From: Chrysophaeum taylorii
Lineage: Eukaryota; Sar; Pelagophyceae; Pelagomonadales; Pelagomonadaceae
Direction of reading: 5' to 3'
Assembly (NCBI GenBank): GCA_029834535.1
Contig: JAQMWT010000572.1
Location: forward strand, 1-64,000
Length of the DNA: 64,000 bases
Shown: positions 53,601 to 64,000 of the stretch, piece by piece
Layout of the letters: each line of letters starts with the position of its first letter
How positions within the stretch are numbered: the stretch's first letter is position 1
Program-made: the position numbers and the translations under genes
Notes under the pieces: generated by a model
Seen by the model: the letters and a program-made list of their open reading frames with translations, nothing else
Told to the model about the DNA's origin: nothing
The model's database searches: none

Positions 53601-56600
53601 AAGTTATTCGGCGAGCTATGACCCGTGAAAAATATCACTGAGCAAACGAATCCTGTTGTGTCGATTTCTTTATTCGTGCCGTTCGTACCCTTGACTCTTT
53701 GACGCAGGAACGGTGGCGCAATCGTTCGAGAAAACCGCTTTGTTCGAAACATGGTCAGTCTGTCGCTGGTTGCTTATTTGCACTTGCGCCTCGTCGCTTC
53801 CATTTCAGGCGTCGGTGCTCCAGATAGAGCCGTCACGAATAAAAGTCACAAATATCGTGCCAGGAAATAGGAGGCGTCGCAGACTTCGAGAAACTGGCCG
53901 CATGCTCGAAGCAGATGACGGCGATGACATCGAAGTCGAGTGGGAAATCCAGGAAGAAGACAACTGCGATGAATCGCTGGATTGCCACTATGGGACGTGC
54001 GCGACGGCGACTGGCGTCTGTGACTGCGACTCGGGGTGGACCGGAAAATTTTGCAACGTCACGACGAATTCCACTGTCGTCGTCGAAGACGACGATGGCG
54101 ATTATACATCGACGCCCGCGCCGTCGTACGATGACAACAACTCGACGAGTCAATACGACCAGCTCGTGGCGCTGTCCGTGACTCTGCAGGAAAAGGCGGA
54201 CTCCGGTCAAATGGATACCGGCTATACCGTGACAGCAATGCTCGTGGTCGAGCCGGAAGACGTGTGCGGCGTTGCGGGCGGCAACGGCACGTCGTGCCTC
54301 GACGACTGTGGCGTCGCGAACGGCGACGGCACGAGCTGCATATCGACGACGGCGCCGACGGCTGCGGCTTACGGAGACTTTAGTGTGTGCGAGAACGCGA
54401 CCTCGAATGCCGGCGCCAGCGAGCGCCAACAAATCTGGATCAAGTCGTCCAATTTCGACAACTCGAGCGGATTCTTCGGGACGTTCAAGTTGAGCTTTAA
54501 CGGCTACTCGACGGACTCGATCTCAGTGTATGCGAGCACGAGTGACATTGAGACGAGGCTCCTCAAATTGGCGAGTGTCCGTGATTCTGTTTCGGTCACG
54601 GGCCTCCTCGAGGGCTATGCGGTCTCGAATACGTCGCGTGAGACGAACGGTGTCACGCAACTTCGCTTCGGCGTCGAGTTTCCGGACACGCCCGACAAAT
54701 CCGAAAGCGTACAAAATTTGGGGTCTCTTCCGTTGATCGAGGTCGACACTTTCTCTCTCACTGGTGACGTCAAGGCTTCGACCGTAAATGCGGTCTGCTT
54801 GGGAAAATACCGCACAGGATATGAATACGCCGAACAGCGCGTGACAATCACGACGATTAACTCACTCCAAGACCTCGCGGCTGCGGGCGGCTCGGTGACG
54901 CTCGAGCTCGACGCAGCTGGGAGCTCGTCGTGCGGCAACGGCACCTCTGACACGCTGAGCCCGACAGCTACGCCCGCCGAGGTTGCCGAGGCGCTCTACG
55001 CGCTGGGCGAAGGTATGTTTGGGGGAACCCTCGAAGGCCGCGTGGAGGTCTTTCAGAACGCTTCAAATGCATCGGTCTCGTGGACTGTGCGCTTCTATAC
55101 CTTGAAAGCCGAAGATCTGACGGGCTGCACGAACAACGGGGAACTTAGGGGCATGCGTGCCTTCCCAAACGATGCATTCAGGAACGCAGGGGCGAGAGTG
55201 GCGGTTGATGTCATTGTTAGCGGCATCGTACCAACGTCAGCCATGCCAATTGACCTAACGCTCGAGAGCGCAACGAGCGGTGCAGTGGAAGCGTTTGAAG
55301 AAGATGAGCTTACGGAGGCGGCGCTGGACTCCGTCGCAGCTCTGGTTGTTGTGTGCGGCGATGGCGTCTATATGTCAGCTGAGGGTTGCGACGACGGAAA
55401 CACTGTCGACGGCGACGGTTGCGCGTATCAGTGTACATCGCTCTAATGTGTTGACTTTTCGCTGACGTTTGACTTTGTCGCAGGCGACAAAAACTGCACC
55501 GTTGAATCGGGATATGTGTGCACCAAGGAAATCTCCTACACGAGTGTCTGCACCGTTCCGTTGGAGGCGACGATCCAGTTCCAGACGACCACGTACAATG
55601 GAATTCCTGAGGGAAACTCGACGACGGTCTACATCGAACGGCTTGGGGACAACACGACGGCTTGCAACGTTTCGTACACGACCGTCGACTCTGATGCAAA
55701 GCACTCCGCCGCGAAGAACAATGACTACACACCTGGAGGTGTGGCTGCGGACGCTGGGGACTACGAGTTTGTCAATGGTACCTTGAACTTTGCGCCTGGT
55801 GAGACAGTGAAGTCAATCACGCTCCACGTGCTGGAAGATGGGTGCTACGACGGCGCCGCAGACGAGACGTTTGTCTTGCGCCTCGAAAGCACGACTTGTG
55901 TCTTTATCGATGACGCGCTCTCGCTAAATGCATATATAGAGATCGATGATGACGACATCGCGCCAACACCACAGCCTACACAATCGCCGAGCTCATACCC
56001 GACGACACACGAGCCGAGTGTCGTGCCGACAAGTTTCCCATCGGAGGAGTGCGCAGGAAGTGGCACCTTCCGCCTTCACAGCCAAGCCGCCAACAACATG
56101 ACATACGAAGTTCACAATTTGAGTTCGTCGACACTGGTGGTGAGCGCCGAGCTCATTGGCACGGGCGTCAAATGGATCTGCCTCACCGATGCGTGCTATA
56201 TGCTGAACGTGACCCACGTTTCGGATTCAGGGGCCAGCTGGCTCTTCGGTGACGGTACACGAGCTGCGACTTTCACGGGCACCGGTATCATTGAATTCTG
56301 TGTGCAAAACGGGGAGATGAACGATTTCCCGACGCCTGCCCCGAGTATGTCTCCGGTGCCGACGAAGATTCCGACGTCACAGCCGAGTGTGAACCCGACT
56401 GGGTTCCCGTCAGTACAACCCACCGAGCATCCGACCGAGTCGCCAACCGCAACGCCTACACTTTTACCGACTTCTGGACCGTCCGCACAACCGACCGCGC
56501 AGCCAACAGAACCCCCAAGCGGAGCACCCACAAATCCACCGACGTCGGCGCCCACGACTTCCCTTCCGTCAGCGGCACCGACGGCGATCCCCTCGATGGT

Positions 56601-58752
56601 ACCGACGTCATTCCCATCCATTGACTGCGGTACACACGACATCTACAAGATTGTCGTCGAACCCACTTCGACTCCGGTCTTGTACACAATCTATAACAGG
56701 ACGACCGAGAGCGCCGCCCCCGTCGCATTGATCGCGTCTGGCTCGGAGTCCTCTGTCCGCTATGTTTGCCTTGGTCCACAGTGCTATGTACTGACCCTGA
56801 GCGCCGACTCCTCCGCAAGCGTCTCCATTTCATCCTCTATCGACAGCTTCGTCGCACCAGTGCCGACGTCGGCATACTACTTCTGCACGTCGAACACGAG
56901 CGAATTTTATTCGCTACCAACCGCGACTCCGTCGGTGTCGCCTGTCCCGAGTGCAAGCCCAACGTCAATTCCAACACGTTTTCCCACCGAAAAGCCCAGC
57001 TCCGCACCAAGCTCGTGCCCGACAACAGGCGAACCGTCGGCCTTGCCAACAGGAGACCCCACGGCAGTACCAAGCGCTGCGCCGTCTACGCCGGTACCAA
57101 GCACCACGCCGTCGGCGTACCCTTCCCCCGATTGCGATGTCGGTCTCTACCGCTACGACACAAACGCTGCAGGAGCTCACTTCGAGATTTTCAACGTGAC
57201 GAATCAAACCGAGGGAAGTCTAGTTGCGGTCGGAATGCTCAACGATGCCGGCTACGTCTGTTTGAGCGATGGCTGTTACGTCTTGAACATGACCGGCCGG
57301 AAAGAAATCTCAGGCATTTTGACTTTTTTGTCGCTCCGCGACGATGCTTTCCACGTTGAGGTGCCGGTCCGGAACGAGCAGTTCTGCACGGCGAACAGCA
57401 CGTTTGTCGGGCTTCCGACGCCTGCGCCAACGATAACGGGTATTCCAACCGCCGCGCCGAGTACGGCGCCATTGTCCAAGCCGACAGTCAATCCTACCAC
57501 GGTAAGTCCCTCGCCGGCACCTTCGATGGCGTTGCCCTCAGAAACACCGATACCACCACCATCGGAGGCCCCAACCACAAACGAACCATCCAGCGCACCG
57601 ACACTACCGCTTCCTACCTTCAAGCATGCGCCGACTGGGGCGCCTACATCGACGTCGACAGCGGTCATCCTCAAGACGTCACTCGGCATGACGAGCGAGT
57701 ATAACGCCACCGCAATCCTCGCGAGTAGCATGCGGAAGCAGGCCTTGGCGAGCGCGATGAGCTCGAGCTCGGACTACCTGCGATCAGACGGTGTTGAGGT
57801 CGCCGATGTCGCCGACACTGGCAGGCGAAGACTCAATTTGGACCGGGCGCTTGCGGCTTCGCACGGCATCACGGTCGACTTCTCGATGACCGTCTATCCC
57901 GCAGCATACGGTATCGACGACCACGAAAGTCTTGTCCAAACTGTCGTCTCAAACATCTCAAGTTTCGTGAACAATGGTGGCATGACGACGGCGGTTTCCG
58001 ACGCTGCAACCTCTCTCGGCGTATCCTTTACGGCGACCGTGCCCTCTCAAACAGTGACCGCCAACTACACGGTTACGACGGTCGTGACGCCTGATTGGTT
58101 TCCGACTGCCAACCCGACTACGCGGCCGACGCTCGGGCCGACGGTCTCGACGAACCCAACTAACACGCCAAGCGAGCCGGCCCAAGAGAAGAAAAAGAAG
58201 GCTGGCGACAGTATGGGCTCTTTATGGATTCTGATAGTCATCATCATCGCACTCGGCGCTTGCGCTGGGGCAAGTGCGCTCACCTACGGTGCGCTCAGAC
58301 TTTTGTCGGGCGCATCCAACAGACTCAGCAATACTAAGATTGCGGTGACCTGTGCTTCCTACGAGGTTTCTCAGCCACAAGAAGAGGCCGTCGACAAGAA
58401 TACCAAGCTGGTCTCCGACCAACAGCGTCCTTTAAAGCGAGACAACCGATTGTCGAGCTTCTCCAAACTTCCAAAGAACTTTAAGCCGGACGATGCCGAG
58501 ATCGAAGCGACGCAGCAGGCTGTCGCGTCGATGGCCAAAGAGGACGTAAACAAGCTCGTCGCGGTGGAACGCTCGAGTCGGGAGAGTGAAATGGAATGCT
58601 GTGCGGACGCCAAGTCGGAGACCGCAAACAGGATTCAAGAGGAAGCGGAATATGAACATACCCGCGAGCTCTTGAGGAAGCGCGGCACGGAGGGGTCCGC
58701 CACAAAAAATACCTGGAACCTCCCGCCGATAGACCGCGGGACTCGCGCTTAG
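35692..58752 (+). CDS. Giant fibrocystin-L (PKHD1L1)-like surface protein, 31-exon model
   Basis: Deduced product 7,037 residues: a cell-surface type I membrane protein. A signal peptide (MRVAGLLVLLWLSSTRA) leads into IPT/TIG 1 (SISPSYGPAEGGTHLHITG). Order: three IPTs (about 36-400), a region with PA14-like sequence (about 440-990), a C-type lectin domain (about 1005-1160), ten more IPTs (about 1255-2500), a Pro/Thr/Ser stalk (2511-2835), an ILEI/GG-like domain and another IPT (about 2840-3180), G8 domain 1 (about 3185-3310) with parallel beta-helix, a ricin-B-like segment, G8 domain 2 (about 4370-4460) with beta-helix, EGF-like, DUF4215, Calx-beta, three Cys modules in Pro/Thr linkers, a SEA-like segment, one membrane helix (about 6859-6885) and a ~150-residue cytosolic tail. 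The IPT-PA14-IPT-G8-PbH-G8-PbH-TM order is that of vertebrate PKHD1L1. Ligand unknown; the lectin and stalk suggest glycan or surface recognition. Confidence 0.85.
35863..37907 (+). other. IPT/TIG domains 1-3 and start of PA14-like region
   Basis: IPT 1 opens GPAEGGTHLHITGTRFF, IPT 2 MTKVWPRHAMAGSVLTMFGE, IPT 3 VRPTAGSIAGGTLVTITG followed, across the intron 36738-36789, by GGFSDDADEIVVSIGGARC. Many NxS/T sequons are present, consistent with a lumenal or extracellular location. Confidence 0.8.
38538..39582 (+). other. PA14-like tail and C-type lectin domain
   Basis: A PA14-like strand set (VGSYEGFFVAPITANYTFFV) precedes a C-type lectin fold: WSFFDGHWYKVSTSKLAW, ARDACLSDGGYLAQIDDAAE, WYTNGHSLWEPNNYGGDQDC, then WDDQ joined over the 44-nt intron 39430-39473 to WCTTELNFVCESE. 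EPN is the motif of mannose-type sugar specificity in animal lectins, and the WxD and final Cys pair are conserved. This lectin is not part of vertebrate PKHD1L1. Confidence 0.8.
43835..44812 (+). repeat. Coding Pro/Thr/Ser mucin-like stalk repeat
   Basis: About 325 residues of PTxxPTxxPS-type repeats (for example PTPVPTFSTDTPTSATPSKN) within exon 13. Such tracts are common in stramenopile wall and surface proteins and are probably O-glycosylated, rod-like spacers. They separate the IPT block from the ILEI-like/G8 half. Confidence 0.85.
45890..47894 (+). other. G8 domain 1 and first parallel beta-helix region
   Basis: G8 signatures: WSAVTTWGGDEDNIPEEGDS spliced to VVITSGQYIVLD, LLVIYGGALEF, FGGKLIVGTEEDPFP. 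Then DWLSGDHIIITSTTFDP, KLGKYPIHFHLVG, HHANNRAIAIHGISHLRVLG, GHAIFIEDGTETRN, WIVNPDND spliced to VHDNVAAGSSHYGFWYRA. These blocks are those shared by fibrocystin, PKHD1L1, CEMIP and TMEM2. Confidence 0.9.
50116..52829 (+). other. G8 domain 2 and second parallel beta-helix region
   Basis: A second G8 is spread over four small exons: YWSGTIWDQWTVIIDQDT, PVVNRLVVRGTLMFDPNADV, HYITVDGGKIIMGNASDPIG. Then ATDWVPGDILTLSLTTHHG, QQGYGAQIRGLGERTKAKPG and beta-helix turns such as NSGSGLSIVNNVFHGAFLSA and GNVVASSYIGVSIQDRGCG. Confidence 0.85.
55970..57660 (+). repeat. Three Cys modules alternating with Pro/Thr/Ser linkers
   Basis: Three ~100-residue copies (about 56047-56330, 56624-56935, 57133-57420) share a leading Cys, YxIxN, WICLTDACYMLNVT / YVCLGPQCYVLTLS / YVCLSDGCYVLNMT, a later FC, and LPTPAPS-type exit. 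Linkers are PTxxPS repeats. This reads as tandem duplication of a linker-plus-domain unit within the coding sequence. Confidence 0.85.
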
Positions 58753-59510: not shown

Positions 59511-60962
59511 ATGATGACCACCATGGCGGATATCGGCGCTGCGCCGCACCCCGCGTTTAGTTCTTTGCACTATTTAGGAAATACGCGCTGCGACGGCATG
59601 TCGATTTCCCCCCACCTTCCTTCACACTTCCTAGCTATGTCGATTACCCTCGACTTCGCACGAACGAAACCCTTCGCGTGTTCGGAACCGTCGCCGCCCA
59701 AGGTCGACCGGTTGGCGATGACGTTCGAGGCCCTGGCCGCGGTGGCGGGTACCGTTCAGAGGGAAGCAGAGAGTGCTGCGTTGCGCGATCTGACGTCCGG
59801 GCGGTACGAAGTTTATGGGGAGGCTGTCGCTGCCAGCGGAGCTCAGTTCGACGTGTCCGGGCAACTAGAGTTGCTCGAGAACTGGAGCGTCCGCGGGAGC
59901 TTAGGGGATGGTCCCGTGATAGACGGTCGATGGAACGAGGACACGTTGCAATTCACGCTGCTGTACAACGGCTCGTTGCGGTACTCGTACGACGTCGCGG
60001 GCCGTAGCTGGCGGGGGAGCGAGGGCGATTACGGCGAGCTGCGCGTGTCGCTGACGCGGACGGTCTCAGCCGAAGCTACAAAGGCGCGGAATCGCGCGGC
60101 CGATGTCGCCGGCCTCGAGGCGCAGGTTCCCGGAGGAAACGAGGCGTGCCGTGTCCGTCACGCGTCGTCGGTCGCGGTGCCGTGCGCTACGTGCGACGCG
60201 GACGACGGCGTGAGCTCGAGGCTCGCATTCTTTGATTTGGACATCCCAAACTTTGGGCGATCCGAGCTCGTGTCCTTCAGCTGCGACGATTGCGGCTACA
60301 AGTACAACAAGGTGAGGGCGACGACTCCGGTGGGCGCCAAGGGGAGGACGATTTGCGCCAAGGTCGTCGACCATCGCGACTTGAGTCGACACGTCGTCCT
60401 TTCAGAAACCGCGCGCGTCAAGATACCGCAGCTCGACGTTGAGATGGACGTCGAAGCCAAGTACACTACGCTCGAAGGCCTCGTCCGTGCCTTTATCGCG
60501 ACGCTGGGTGGCGTCCCGATTGCGAGCGACGGGGGCAGGCTCGAGGCTGCCGACTTCGAGGCCAAGGTCGGGCGGCTCCTGGAGACGTGCGGCTTCGACG
60601 TCGACATCGAGGACCCCGCGGCGCAGTCGTGGATTTCGGGGGAGGTCGAGACCCGCGACTGGGTCCGAACCCCCGAGCAAGAAGCCGAGCTCGGCATTGC
60701 CAAGCTTAGCGTCACGCCGACAACGGCGGCGAGATTTCCGGCGGCATTGTCGCCGTCGTCGTCGGAAGGCGGCACGATGACGCTTATGAGGGCCTGCGAG
60801 GCCCTCTCCGCGGAGTACACGCGAGAGTATGTTGGCCAACGAGATGATGGTAAAGTAGGCTCCTCGCCGCACCCCTCTCGACCTCCCGCGGACAGAGGCG
60901 CGCAGCCGCCCGTTGCTCAGCACCCGGTAGGTAATAATAACTGCTACGCCGAGGTCGACTAG
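59511..60962 (+). CDS. Single ZPR1-type zinc-finger domain protein with novel N-terminus
   Basis: 483 residues from 59511; internal Mets (59637, 59718) are alternative starts. Residues about 100-185 form a beta-rich region of no known family (GRYEVYGEAVAASGAQFDVS, NEDTLQFTLLYNGSLRYSY). A ZPR1 domain follows, about 220-375: VPCATCDADDG, LDIPNFGRSELVSFSCDDCG, GAKGRTICAKVVDHRDLSRH, LSETARVKIPQLDVEMD, YTTLEGLVRAF. All four zinc Cys are present. Eukaryotic ZPR1 has two such halves and binds eEF1A; here only one is seen, so it resembles single-domain members of the superfamily. The C-terminal ~45 residues are Pro-rich and may be an unspliced tail. The next gene starts 68 bp downstream in another frame. 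Confidence 0.7.
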   Translation: MMTTMADIGAAPHPAFSSLHYLGNTRCDGMSISPHLPSHFLAMSITLDFARTKPFACSEPSPPKVDRLAMTFEALAAVAGTVQREAESAALRDLTSGRYEVYGEAVAASGAQFDVSGQLELLENWSVRGSLGDGPVIDGRWNEDTLQFTLLYNGSLRYSYDVAGRSWRGSEGDYGELRVSLTRTVSAEATKARNRAADVAGLEAQVPGGNEACRVRHASSVAVPCATCDADDGVSSRLAFFDLDIPNFGRSELVSFSCDDCGYKYNKVRATTPVGAKGRTICAKVVDHRDLSRHVVLSETARVKIPQLDVEMDVEAKYTTLEGLVRAFIATLGGVPIASDGGRLEAADFEAKVGRLLETCGFDVDIEDPAAQSWISGEVETRDWVRTPEQEAELGIAKLSVTPTTAARFPAALSPSSSEGGTMTLMRACEALSAEYTREYVGQRDDGKVGSSPHPSRPPADRGAQPPVAQHPVGNNNCYAEVD

Positions 60963-61029: not shown

Positions 61030-64000
61030 ATGTTGATGGTGATGTCGTTCGCGACGATTGTGGAAAGCATCGTTATGGGCTGGGTGCCGCTGCAGGGAGG
61101 CGGCAGTATCCCGCAACTAAGTCTGGGGATAAAGTCAGGGATGAGCGCGGACGAGGCCTACGGCATCGTGACGACGGCCTTGGGCCGTGGGTATCGCCAC
61201 ATCGTCGCTGCGACCAATCACGACGCGGTCGCGCGGGCAGTGCATGATTTTGTGGGCGTGTCTCGAGGCGACGTCTTCTTGACAATCACGGTGGCGCCGG
61301 GCGAGAACGCGAGCGCGGCAATCGAGGTCGAGGCCGACCTCGCGATGCTAGAGCTTTCCAATCACGACTATTCAGCTCGCAAGGAGGCGTGGCTATCGCT
61401 GGAGGAGGCTTGTGCAGCAGGTCGGGTCAAGTACCTGGGTGTTGCGAACTCTTCGGTCCCCCACTTGCGAGAGATGGCTCGATATGCATCGATCACGCCC
61501 GCCGTCATCCACCTCGCGGGGAGCGAGTGGCGCGACGTGCGAGATTACTGCCTAGAACACGGCGCCGTCGGAGCGGTCGCGACAGCTAGCACACGTAGGG
61601 TGCCGATCGAAAAAGTAGTTCGCTGGGCCATGCAGCGCGGGCTCGTCGTACTTGTAGACGACATCGTCGAGCCGAGGATGTTCGCGGGGGCCGACGACGA
61701 GGAGGCAACGATTGACTTCGACGCGCTTTTTTTTGATAGCCGTGCTCCCGCCTCTGGGGACGTGCTGCCTACAGCTAAGGAATATATCGGTGACGAGCTT
61801 CCGGCGTTCAGGGAAGTTGACGAGAGCGAGTGGACCGTCCAGAGTGTCGGCGGAATGGCGTCTACGCCGCTCTTCCGGCTCCCGTGGGAGTTCGACCTCG
61901 AGGCCCTGCAAGCCGACGCCCGCGTTGCGATGGAGGGGTGGGACTGGAACGTTTCGGAGTACGGTCACGCGCGGCCGCTCCTGACAGCAGACCGGCTCCC
62001 CCTCGAGTTCCGCGATCACTTCATCAACGCGCCGCACGCGTCGACGGACCTCTTCGTCCGCGCACCAACGTTCCGCGCTTTGTTTGAGTGGTTTGCGGAG
62101 CGTTGCGAGGTCGCGTCTTTCCGCCTCTTGCGTCGACTGCCTTTGACGGCCTATGGGCTCCACAACGACGAGGACTTGCACGTGCGGCCCGAAATCCGGC
62201 GGTTTCAGGTGCCTATCTTCGCCGAGGAGGACGAGGCGTTTTTGCTCGCGACACCGTTCGCGTCGCCCCTGAGCCTCGCCGACCGGCTTGGGGTGGACTT
62301 TGGGACTCAAAATCCGCTTTTGAGCCACGAAGCCTGGCCGACCGGGTCGTGGGACTACGAGAGAGCGCCCGGCGACCCCCCGTGGTACGACGTCGTCGGC
62401 GGCGGGTACGCCGTCGAACGCGACAGGATTGTCGCGTGGATAAACGACTTTGCTCAAAGAAGCGGCAGCGTCTACACGCTGACGCCAGGACGCCTGCACC
62501 ATTTCGACACCATGCGGCGCCACACGCTCGTGAATTTGATGCGCGAGCCTCGCATCACGCTGGTCGTCGACCTCGTCGAGAACGAATGGATGCGGCGCGT
62601 TATGCCGGCCATCACGAATACGAAGCGCGTCGACGCGGCCACGGATGCCGCCGAGCTCCTTCGGGCGGCGCGATCTATGCGCGATCAGGACGGTGTTTTC
62701 CTCAACGACCTCGTAGTCGACCAGACGTTCCCACGCCAGGCGACGCTCACGGGCTCGATCGTCGACGACTCGTCCGCCACGGTCACCGTGGCGCCGCAGC
62801 TGTCGGCGGGGTCGCACTGGGGGCTCTATGCGTTCAAGGTGCTGTGCGGCCGCGCTCTAGACGATGTCGCGAGCCACCAGGTTGCCGATATCCCGCAGCT
62901 GGCCGACGGCGACTGTTGGTTGTCGTTCGTGCAGCGAGACCTCTCTCGCGCGCGAAAGCTCGGGGATGGCGAGGCGCGGCTCACGCGTCGAGTCAACGCT
63001 GATTTCGACGTGACGCTCGACGCTAGGCGGTGCGAAAACGAGACACGGTGCGCCCTGGAACTCACCATCTTCGACTCCGAGGGCATCGCGCTCACTCCGA
63101 CCGTTTCCTCGACTGCCTATCTCCGAAAGACGTCGTCGTCGTCGTCGTCGTTTATCGACCCCGACCTCGCATCGCGACTTTCGCGGCTGAGCTTTTCGTT
63201 TTCGCACGGCGCCGCGCCCAACTTCCTCGGCACAGGCCTCGTCTACTACGCGCTGTGTTACGCGCAGCGCGCGACCCTGGCCGTCGTTCTCGGCTCGGGA
63301 GGCGGGTTCGCGCCCGGTCTGATCCGCCAAGCGCAACGCGACGCGGCGATCGGAGACGTCTCGAGAACCGTGTTGGTGGATGCCAACGTCGCGCGCGGTC
63401 CTTGGGGCTCGCCGGACTACCTAGATTCGCCGCCAAACAGCGCTCTCCACCAGCTTTACCCCGAAATCGAGATCGTCGTCTCGACGACAGACGGGGCGCT
63501 CGGCATGTTTCGGGACATCGACTTGCTTTTGATCGACGCCGACCATTCCCATGGCCAGTCCCTCAAGGATGCTCTCGGGTGGCTCCCGTTGCTTAAGCCG
63601 ACGGGCGTCGCCGTGCTCCACGACACGGGCGGCGCCGCTTACGGCTGTTCCAAGACGCCGCGGGATCTCCGGGGCCGCGGCTACGACGTGGTTAACTTGG
63701 CCGACTCAAACTGGGGAAGTGGTTTGGCAATCGTCCGACTCGCCCTCGACAATCCCGTGGTCCTCGAGGCGAGCCTCGGCACCGGAAACGCCGACGAGAT
63801 ATACGCGGAAGCCGCAACCCTCGCCGCGGCGCGTGATAGGGCGTTCGATATCTGCGCGCGCCGGGGCGTCCAGCCGCGCGCCGCTTGCGCCGAGAACCTC
63901 CTCCGCTCCGCCGAACTTCCCCAGCGCCAAGACGACGACCACGACGACGACAAAGTAACGCGCATCGCCGCTCTCCTCGCGCAACGCGCGCAAATCGATC
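61030..64000 (+). CDS. AKR-like / 2OG-oxygenase-like / SAM-methyltransferase fusion (3' end outside window)
   Basis: The frame from the ATG at 61030 (in-frame stop at 60985) stays open for 990 codons to the window edge. Domain 1, about 19-215, follows the aldo/keto reductase plan (VPLQGGGSIPQLSLGIKSG, ALGRGYRHIVAATNHDAV, CAAGRVKYLGVANSSVPHL) but lacks the family's Asp, Tyr, Lys and His catalytic residues. Domain 2, about 320-520, resembles the Asp/Asn beta-hydroxylase fold: HND at 378-380, RRFQVPIFAEEDEAF, LTPGRLHHFDTMRRH with His498, and EPRITLVVDLVEN with Arg508, i.e. an Fe(II)-binding HxD...H set and a 2OG-binding Arg. Domain 3, about 720-900, is a class I methyltransferase: VVLGSGGGFAPGLI (Gly755), LLLIDADHSHGQSLKDALGW (Asp836), LKPTGVAVLHDTGG. 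A tailoring enzyme for a small molecule or peptide is inferred. Not a known fusion to me. Confidence 0.75.
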   Translation, partial: MLMVMSFATIVESIVMGWVPLQGGGSIPQLSLGIKSGMSADEAYGIVTTALGRGYRHIVAATNHDAVARAVHDFVGVSRGDVFLTITVAPGENASAAIEVEADLAMLELSNHDYSARKEAWLSLEEACAAGRVKYLGVANSSVPHLREMARYASITPAVIHLAGSEWRDVRDYCLEHGAVGAVATASTRRVPIEKVVRWAMQRGLVVLVDDIVEPRMFAGADDEEATIDFDALFFDSRAPASGDVLPTAKEYIGDELPAFREVDESEWTVQSVGGMASTPLFRLPWEFDLEALQADARVAMEGWDWNVSEYGHARPLLTADRLPLEFRDHFINAPHASTDLFVRAPTFRALFEWFAERCEVASFRLLRRLPLTAYGLHNDEDLHVRPEIRRFQVPIFAEEDEAFLLATPFASPLSLADRLGVDFGTQNPLLSHEAWPTGSWDYERAPGDPPWYDVVGGGYAVERDRIVAWINDFAQRSGSVYTLTPGRLHHFDTMRRHTLVNLMREPRITLVVDLVENEWMRRVMPAITNTKRVDAATDAAELLRAARSMRDQDGVFLNDLVVDQTFPRQATLTGSIVDDSSATVTVAPQLSAGSHWGLYAFKVLCGRALDDVASHQVADIPQLADGDCWLSFVQRDLSRARKLGDGEARLTRRVNADFDVTLDARRCENETRCALELTIFDSEGIALTPTVSSTAYLRKTSSSSSSFIDPDLASRLSRLSFSFSHGAAPNFLGTGLVYYALCYAQRATLAVVLGSGGGFAPGLIRQAQRDAAIGDVSRTVLVDANVARGPWGSPDYLDSPPNSALHQLYPEIEIVVSTTDGALGMFRDIDLLLIDADHSHGQSLKDALGWLPLLKPTGVAVLHDTGGAAYGCSKTPRDLRGRGYDVVNLADSNWGSGLAIVRLALDNPVVLEASLGTGNADEIYAEAATLAAARDRAFDICARRGVQPRAACAENLLRSAELPQRQDDDHDDDKVTRIAALLAQRAQID

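Follow-up and report, generated by a model that had tools for sequence, protein, structure and literature searches.

Does the long reading frame that closes this stretch of the genome of the pelagophyte alga Chrysophaeum taylorii encode a single multi-step enzyme, and which of its domains are likely to be active? The stretch analysed (hereafter the window) comprises the first 64,000 nucleotides of contig JAQMWT010000572.1, designated C572 in the genome searched (70.8 Mb, 697 contigs). The original prediction, made from the letters of the window, described a fusion of a degenerate aldo/keto reductase (AKR), a 2-oxoglutarate (2OG) oxygenase and an S-adenosylmethionine (SAM) methyltransferase. 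The gene occupies 61030..64000 on the + strand, as do all of its features described below, and is free of stop codons for 990 codons from 61030 to the window edge (63999). Beyond the window the frame continues to a stop codon at contig base 64122 (L004 6122), giving a product of 1,030 amino acids (aa) in a single frame. Among 50 random 64-kb sequences simulated with the composition of the window between 60 and 64 kb, the longest run without a stop codon measured 390 codons on average and never exceeded 522; the unbroken 990-codon frame is nearly twice that maximum and is therefore not a product of chance. Support for the start codon comes from a paralogue, L006, whose first residues lie at the same point and form a similar hydrophobic stretch (MLMVMSFAT versus MLLFLWFAT). 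With a single frame, a 1,030-aa product and the domain matches reported below, the proposal of three enzymes fused on one chain is borne out.

Searching this genome at the DNA and protein level with the hydroxylase domain recovered two more close copies and no third. L006, on contig C387, has a product of 1,120 aa that keeps this domain order through the methyltransferase and the C-terminal tail. The other copy, L007 on contig C9, comprises an AKR, the hydroxylase and a region of unknown type before its contig ends at FLGTGT, just before the methyltransferase. Each of the three copies reads through in a single frame as far as its sequence is available, and the domain order is established at two complete loci and, up to its truncation, at L007.

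The Fe/2OG hydroxylase domain (residues 279-530; 61864..62619) is of the HxD type of the Pfam family Asp_Arg_Hydrox. The HxD iron ligands H378 and D380 (62161..62169), the distal iron ligand H498 (62521..62523) and R508 (62551..62553), which we take to be the expected 2OG-binding arginine, stand at the positions originally proposed and are the same in all 11 aligned sequences. This alignment consists of the three algal copies, a further locus of the same alga (L022) and seven bacterial rows, with L196 left out. An insert at residues ~401-468 (62230..62433) is present in the three algal copies and absent from L022 and the seven bacterial rows. A second alignment, produced with MAFFT from the window domain and 31 of 80 bacterial loci, misplaced the HxD motif and was not taken on to structure prediction.

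Direct scanning against Asp_Arg_Hydrox (PF05118) left all three copies under the Pfam cut-off (E 0.15-0.22; 0.15 for the window copy), and the family assignment comes from profile comparison. The HxD-type profile has nine members, namely eight prokaryote loci and L022. The prokaryote members derive from 13 fetched regions, 12 of which were picked as weaker-scoring matches and one of which was the single match from a search of one phylum; L191-L194 and L195 were left out, as they appear to be of another type and have no HxD motif at that place. Aligned with hhalign, the algal profile matched the HxD-type profile over 180 columns with a probability of 97.9, an E of 5.6e-13 and a score of 91.2. 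On gap-trimmed columns the score was 86.7; 200 shuffles of the columns reached no more than 20.6, and reversing the profile gave 14.0. The shuffle control had been redone on trimmed columns because, in a comparison with a mostly HxG-type profile (80 bacterial and eight algal Asp_Arg_Hydrox domains), one of 100 column shuffles scored 132.4, an effect for which gap columns are suspected; the next best scored 21.9. By these sequence comparisons the homology of the second domain to HxD-type Asp_Arg_Hydrox is established, and its predicted ligand set is complete.

Against solved structures, the joint profile matched L-proline cis-4-hydroxylase (4p7w, E 4.2e-15), 1e5r (1.7e-9) and Cpz10 (7v4f, 4.3e-9), versus E values of only 0.03 to 1 for Asp/Asn beta-hydroxylase structures. 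The label of an Asp/Asn-hydroxylase-like domain thus holds for the Pfam family but not for the nearest solved relatives, which are proline and nucleoside-antibiotic hydroxylases. Because these are the best solved matches, the small-molecule half of the suggested natural-product or protein-modifying role is favoured over the protein-modifying half.

The Methyltransf_24 domain (residues 753-866; 63286..63627) is over the cut-off in both copies that reach it, and the two are 65% identical there. Scores against PF13578 were 39.7 bits in the window copy and 39.4 bits in L006, compared with a cut-off of 26.3. Four motifs are recognisable, VVLGSGGGF (752-760), TVLVD (780-784), LLLIDADHS (832-840) and VAVLHDT (860-866), the first being presumably the SAM glycine loop of methyltransferases and the following ones their acidic motifs; three of the 30 motif residues differ in L006. 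The score and the motifs confirm the SAM methyltransferase with glycine loop and acidic motifs that had been read from the sequence. Between the hydroxylase and this domain lies a region of unknown type (residues 531-725; 62620..63204) that is missing from the original account of the domains. It occurs in all three copies, is weakly constrained (25-31% identity, with four cysteines common to all) and has no match in Pfam.

The N-terminal AKR domain (residues 20-232; 61087..61725) is degenerate in the window copy. Its kinship with the AKR superfamily is found by sequence, with a phmmer E of 2.3e-11 to 2,5-diketo-D-gluconate reductase (1hw6); with Pfam Aldo_ket_red it falls narrowly under the cut-off of 24 bits (22.3 bits, E 8.1e-5), while the paralogues match at 9e-37 and 1.4e-37. 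At the C-terminal motif of both paralogues, PKSxxxxRIxEN, which we assume to be NADPH-binding, the paralogues read LPKSTSAARIKEN and VPKSASRDRIVEN, compared with LVDDIVEPRMF in the window copy. The canonical catalytic tetrad of the AKRs is Asp, Tyr, Lys and His (PMC8524200). In the window copy V59 stands in place of the Asp and T87 in place of the Lys, and Tyr and His are opposite gaps, the His having been lost together with its surrounding segment; the tetrad is complete in both L006 and L007 (DTAxxYGNH, FVT(T/S)K, HFPAP). An AKR without its four catalytic residues was therefore correctly recognised. Aligned to the paralogues in turn, the domain shows 66 and 70 gap columns at 37-43% identity, and the linker that follows the AKR in both, TGCGPxCxxGxYLWSPDVVPA, is mostly lost. 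The suggestion that the dead reductase serves as a cofactor sensor is unsupported, because the NADPH motif has gone as well.

Among the three copies, the tetrad and the NADPH motif are lost in the window copy only. A dead reductase is thus not part of the defining architecture, as had been supposed: both paralogues have an intact-looking AKR, and for this reason the ancestral chain was probably reductase-hydroxylase-methyltransferase, with the window copy having lost its reductase. In three-way branch lengths on an unrooted tree, the ratio of the window branch to the sum of the other two was 1.00 (0.71-1.38) for the AKR, 0.49 (0.31-0.75) for the hydroxylase core and 0.40 (0.26-0.56) for region 531-725, which places the AKR change on the window lineage. 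Compared with L006, the window copy is 65-68% identical in the hydroxylase core and methyltransferase and 43% identical in the AKR, where 66 columns are gapped.

Taken as a whole, the locus is on balance best explained as a multi-step small-molecule tailoring enzyme whose AKR has decayed in the window copy. A C-H bond of the substrate, a small molecule and perhaps an amino acid or peptide-like compound, would be hydroxylated by the Fe(II)/2OG domain, after which the Methyltransf_24 domain of the same chain would methylate an oxygen, probably that of the new hydroxyl. In the ancestral form, represented by L006 and probably L007, an N-terminal NADPH-dependent AKR would add a reduction step; in the window copy this domain appears to have decayed in frame and would now be at most a scaffold or N-terminal segment. 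From the sequences we infer the catalytic activity, the order of the steps (hydroxylation, then O-methylation), the hydroxyl as methyl acceptor and the class of substrate. A tailoring enzyme that hydroxylates and then transfers a methyl group, with a reduction where the AKR is intact, would be the most economical reading.

Several observations weigh against this explanation. The algal hydroxylase profile (A2) on its own matched no solved structure in the PDB, reached a probability of only 5.5 with L022 alone, and aligned with the mostly HxG-type profile at the C-terminal motif only (score 30.8, probability 27.8). Because the algal profile by itself matched poorly, the hydroxylase kinship rests on the HxD-type and joint profiles, and the bacterial rows may drive the structure matches of the latter. 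Single-sequence AlphaFold of the hydroxylase domain alone gave a predicted local distance difference test score (pLDDT) of 32.9, too low to inform on the fold, and a two-row methyltransferase profile had no solved match at E 1. The methyltransferase of L007 is not visible, as its contig ends before it, and the branch-ratio intervals of the AKR and the hydroxylase just overlap. Region 531-725 may be no more than a linker, because its first and second codon positions change nearly as fast as the third (0.53/0.49/0.60 for positions 1/2/3).

A bolder version, which we hold only tentatively, is that the three copies represent a new single-chain reductase-hydroxylase-methyltransferase family in this algal lineage that would carry out three consecutive steps on one small molecule, with region 531-725 perhaps holding or positioning the substrate and the window copy being a two-step version with a non-catalytic reductase. 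An addition to the tailoring enzyme, not an alternative to it, is that the degenerate AKR still serves the other domains by binding proteins or docking the substrate. The remnant has been kept in frame through several insertions and deletions, retains an 11-residue block (VPHLREMARYA) common to both paralogues and, under simulated random mutation, with half of the divergence from L006 assigned to the window lineage, would have stayed free of stop codons with a P of 0.03. The kept frame is nevertheless no proof of function, because the downstream domains are translated from this start and require it regardless, and with identity as low as 37-43% we regard such a role as doubtful.

Less probable still is a glycan-tailoring enzyme, in which the methyltransferase would act on a sugar hydroxyl and the hydroxylase on a sugar or aglycone, in the synthesis of cell-wall or extracellular glycans. 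The frames 3' of the fusion gene are glycosyltransferase-like and would fit a sugar substrate equally well: a Galactosyl_T gene comes first, and the next frame, of 1,444 codons, matches Glyco_trans_1_4 and, below the cut-off, Sulfotransfer_3. Elsewhere in the genome Methyltransf_24 is joined to Glyco_transf_8, and the hydrophobic N-termini are compatible with a secretory route, as judged from the sequence without a signal-peptide predictor. However, Pfam finds no glycosyltransferase domain on the fusion protein, and the solved structures that the joint hydroxylase profile matches best belong to enzymes with amino-acid-like substrates. Glycosyltransferase-like genes were not seen beside either paralogue on the one side of each that was examined, where L006 is flanked by an SDR gene and a PTH2/Peptidase_C15 frame and L007 by an enoyl-reductase-like gene.

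It is improbable that the window copy is a decaying duplicate without an enzymatic role, leaving the paralogues alone to work. Its dead AKR, its long branch and its lower third-position GC content (0.73 compared with 0.83 and 0.82 in the paralogues) would fit such decay, but the ligands are intact, there are zero stops in 1,030 codons, and the hydroxylase core and methyltransferase have kept their identity to L006. Changes in these two domains are moreover concentrated at third codon positions (0.28/0.17/0.53 and 0.32/0.24/0.55 for positions 1/2/3, respectively). Chance read-through of separate genes, or of an assembly chimera, is very improbable. Long frames are common in this high-GC window, but the same order recurs on three contigs in one frame each (in L007 as far as the contig goes), and the frame has about twice the length of the longest simulated one.

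Relatives of the hydroxylase were sought beyond the alga. Scans with profile A2 each relied on two short peptide patterns, which distant relatives could escape; 60 stretches in viral contigs and 65 in the genomes of 84,980 prokaryote species fitted a pattern, and none was confirmed in either set. Two degenerate motif patterns had no match in viral contigs, tblastn of the L006 hydroxylase domain had none in phages and plasmids, and when single Asp_Arg_Hydrox domains (L015, L022, L185) served as queries against viral contigs, no match was confirmed. A2 matches in five of 16 prokaryote genomes, with a best E of 0.014, were taken as chance. The L022 domain matched one phage record and one of 199 genomes of one bacterial phylum; the phage match (L153; Limnohabitans phage DC33, 4609-4950) is a hypothetical protein with 32% identity to the L022 hydroxylase domain (E 1e-4). 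A search of the alga's own genome with one bacterial HxD domain was uninformative and gave no match. A literature search for the domain order or its parts found no description, although subscription journals were thinly covered and absence from print is not established.

Other fusions occur in this genome. Asp_Arg_Hydrox is found in at least eight other places, and at L022 (979-2757, +, contig C671) it is joined to a sulfotransferase domain. Sulfotransfer_3 was over the cut-off in three of the seven prokaryote HxD members scanned with Pfam (L189, the eighth, was left out), so the HxD hydroxylase branch stands beside a group-transferase more than once. One bacterial HxD-type hydroxylase (L186:711-1601, +) has a C-terminal Nif11-like stretch under the cut-off (20.3 versus 23.8 bits), a faint hint of a peptide natural-product link for this branch. 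Methyltransf_24 had 22 matches in the genome at E 0.01, of which 20 exceeded the cut-off and two are the window copy and L006; in one other it is joined to Glyco_transf_8 (L031:1-1953, -, contig C43), and in another (L026) the other half of the frame is rhodanese-like by eye. Among long AKR frames, a 685-codon frame (L053:1441-3495, -, contig C345) combines a TauD 2OG dioxygenase (1.7e-22) with an AKR (4.2e-45). Since its 2OG family and domain order differ from those of the fusion copies, 2OG-AKR fusion appears to have arisen twice in this genome. A 752-codon frame (L061:130-2385, +, contig C38) holds a ShK domain and an AKR, and the N-terminal parts of two further long AKR frames (L056, L059) had no Pfam match. 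The TauD-AKR and hydroxylase-sulfotransferase combinations suggest a habit of fusing tailoring enzymes.

Around the fusion gene, the Galactosyl_T gene lies just past the window (L004:6132-7340, -) and is convergent with it, the two stop codons being 6 bases apart; the 1,444-codon frame follows at L005:1429-5760 (+), its sulfotransferase match being under the cut-off. Directly upstream, window positions 59511-60962 (+) hold a frame with ZPR1 jelly-roll and zinc-finger matches. A Calx-beta domain and PT-rich repeats are found in a frame of 1,078 codons at window positions 55516-58752 (+). An Rfam scan of the window at gathering thresholds gave no match.

Each named domain belongs to a known family. 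L-proline cis-4-hydroxylase (4p7w) and 1e5r (PDB name PROLINE OXIDASE, which we take to be proline 3-hydroxylase) resemble the hydroxylase domain over most of its length, with the HxD, distal His and Arg, but have no AKR or methyltransferase and, in the alignment, no insert of the algal kind; they are known as single enzymes acting on free proline. L184, L185, L196 and L022 share the hydroxylase branch and likewise carry a C-terminal group-transfer enzyme, but for sulfate instead of methyl, if the domain name holds, and no AKR was found in them. The 2,5-diketo-D-gluconate reductases (1hw6, DkgA/DkgB) are the best AKR group for the window remnant by phmmer and for all three copies by NCBIfam. 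They differ in being stand-alone enzymes, and the window copy lacks the tetrad while the paralogues fall under the DkgA/DkgB equivalog cut-offs. In the reticuline epimerase REPI of opium poppy the partner of the reductase is a P450 domain. REPI likewise holds an AKR (the DRR domain) with tetrad residues replaced within a larger biosynthetic protein (PMC8524200), but its partner is another one and DRR is treated as a catalyst, whereas the window AKR is missing whole segments. Cpz10 (7v4f) of caprazamycin biosynthesis likewise performs natural-product tailoring with an Fe/2OG facial triad, H-x-D...H; its iron ligands are H115, D117 and H160, and its reaction is the beta-hydroxylation of a caprazamycin (nucleoside-antibiotic) intermediate (PMC9814697). 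It is a stand-alone enzyme of a bacterial cluster, the pathway methyltransferases being other proteins, Cpz11 and Cpz26 (PMC9814697). Together with the TauD-AKR and hydroxylase-sulfotransferase fusions, the algal chain suggests that this lineage assembles tailoring enzymes through gene fusion, and its two complete copies and one truncated copy, one of them without the first step, offer a natural comparison for examining whether fused steps channel a substrate. In the caprazamycin pathway, the one bacterial pathway compared, hydroxylation and methylation fall to separate enzymes (PMC9814697); in the algal chain these two steps and a reduction appear to be combined.

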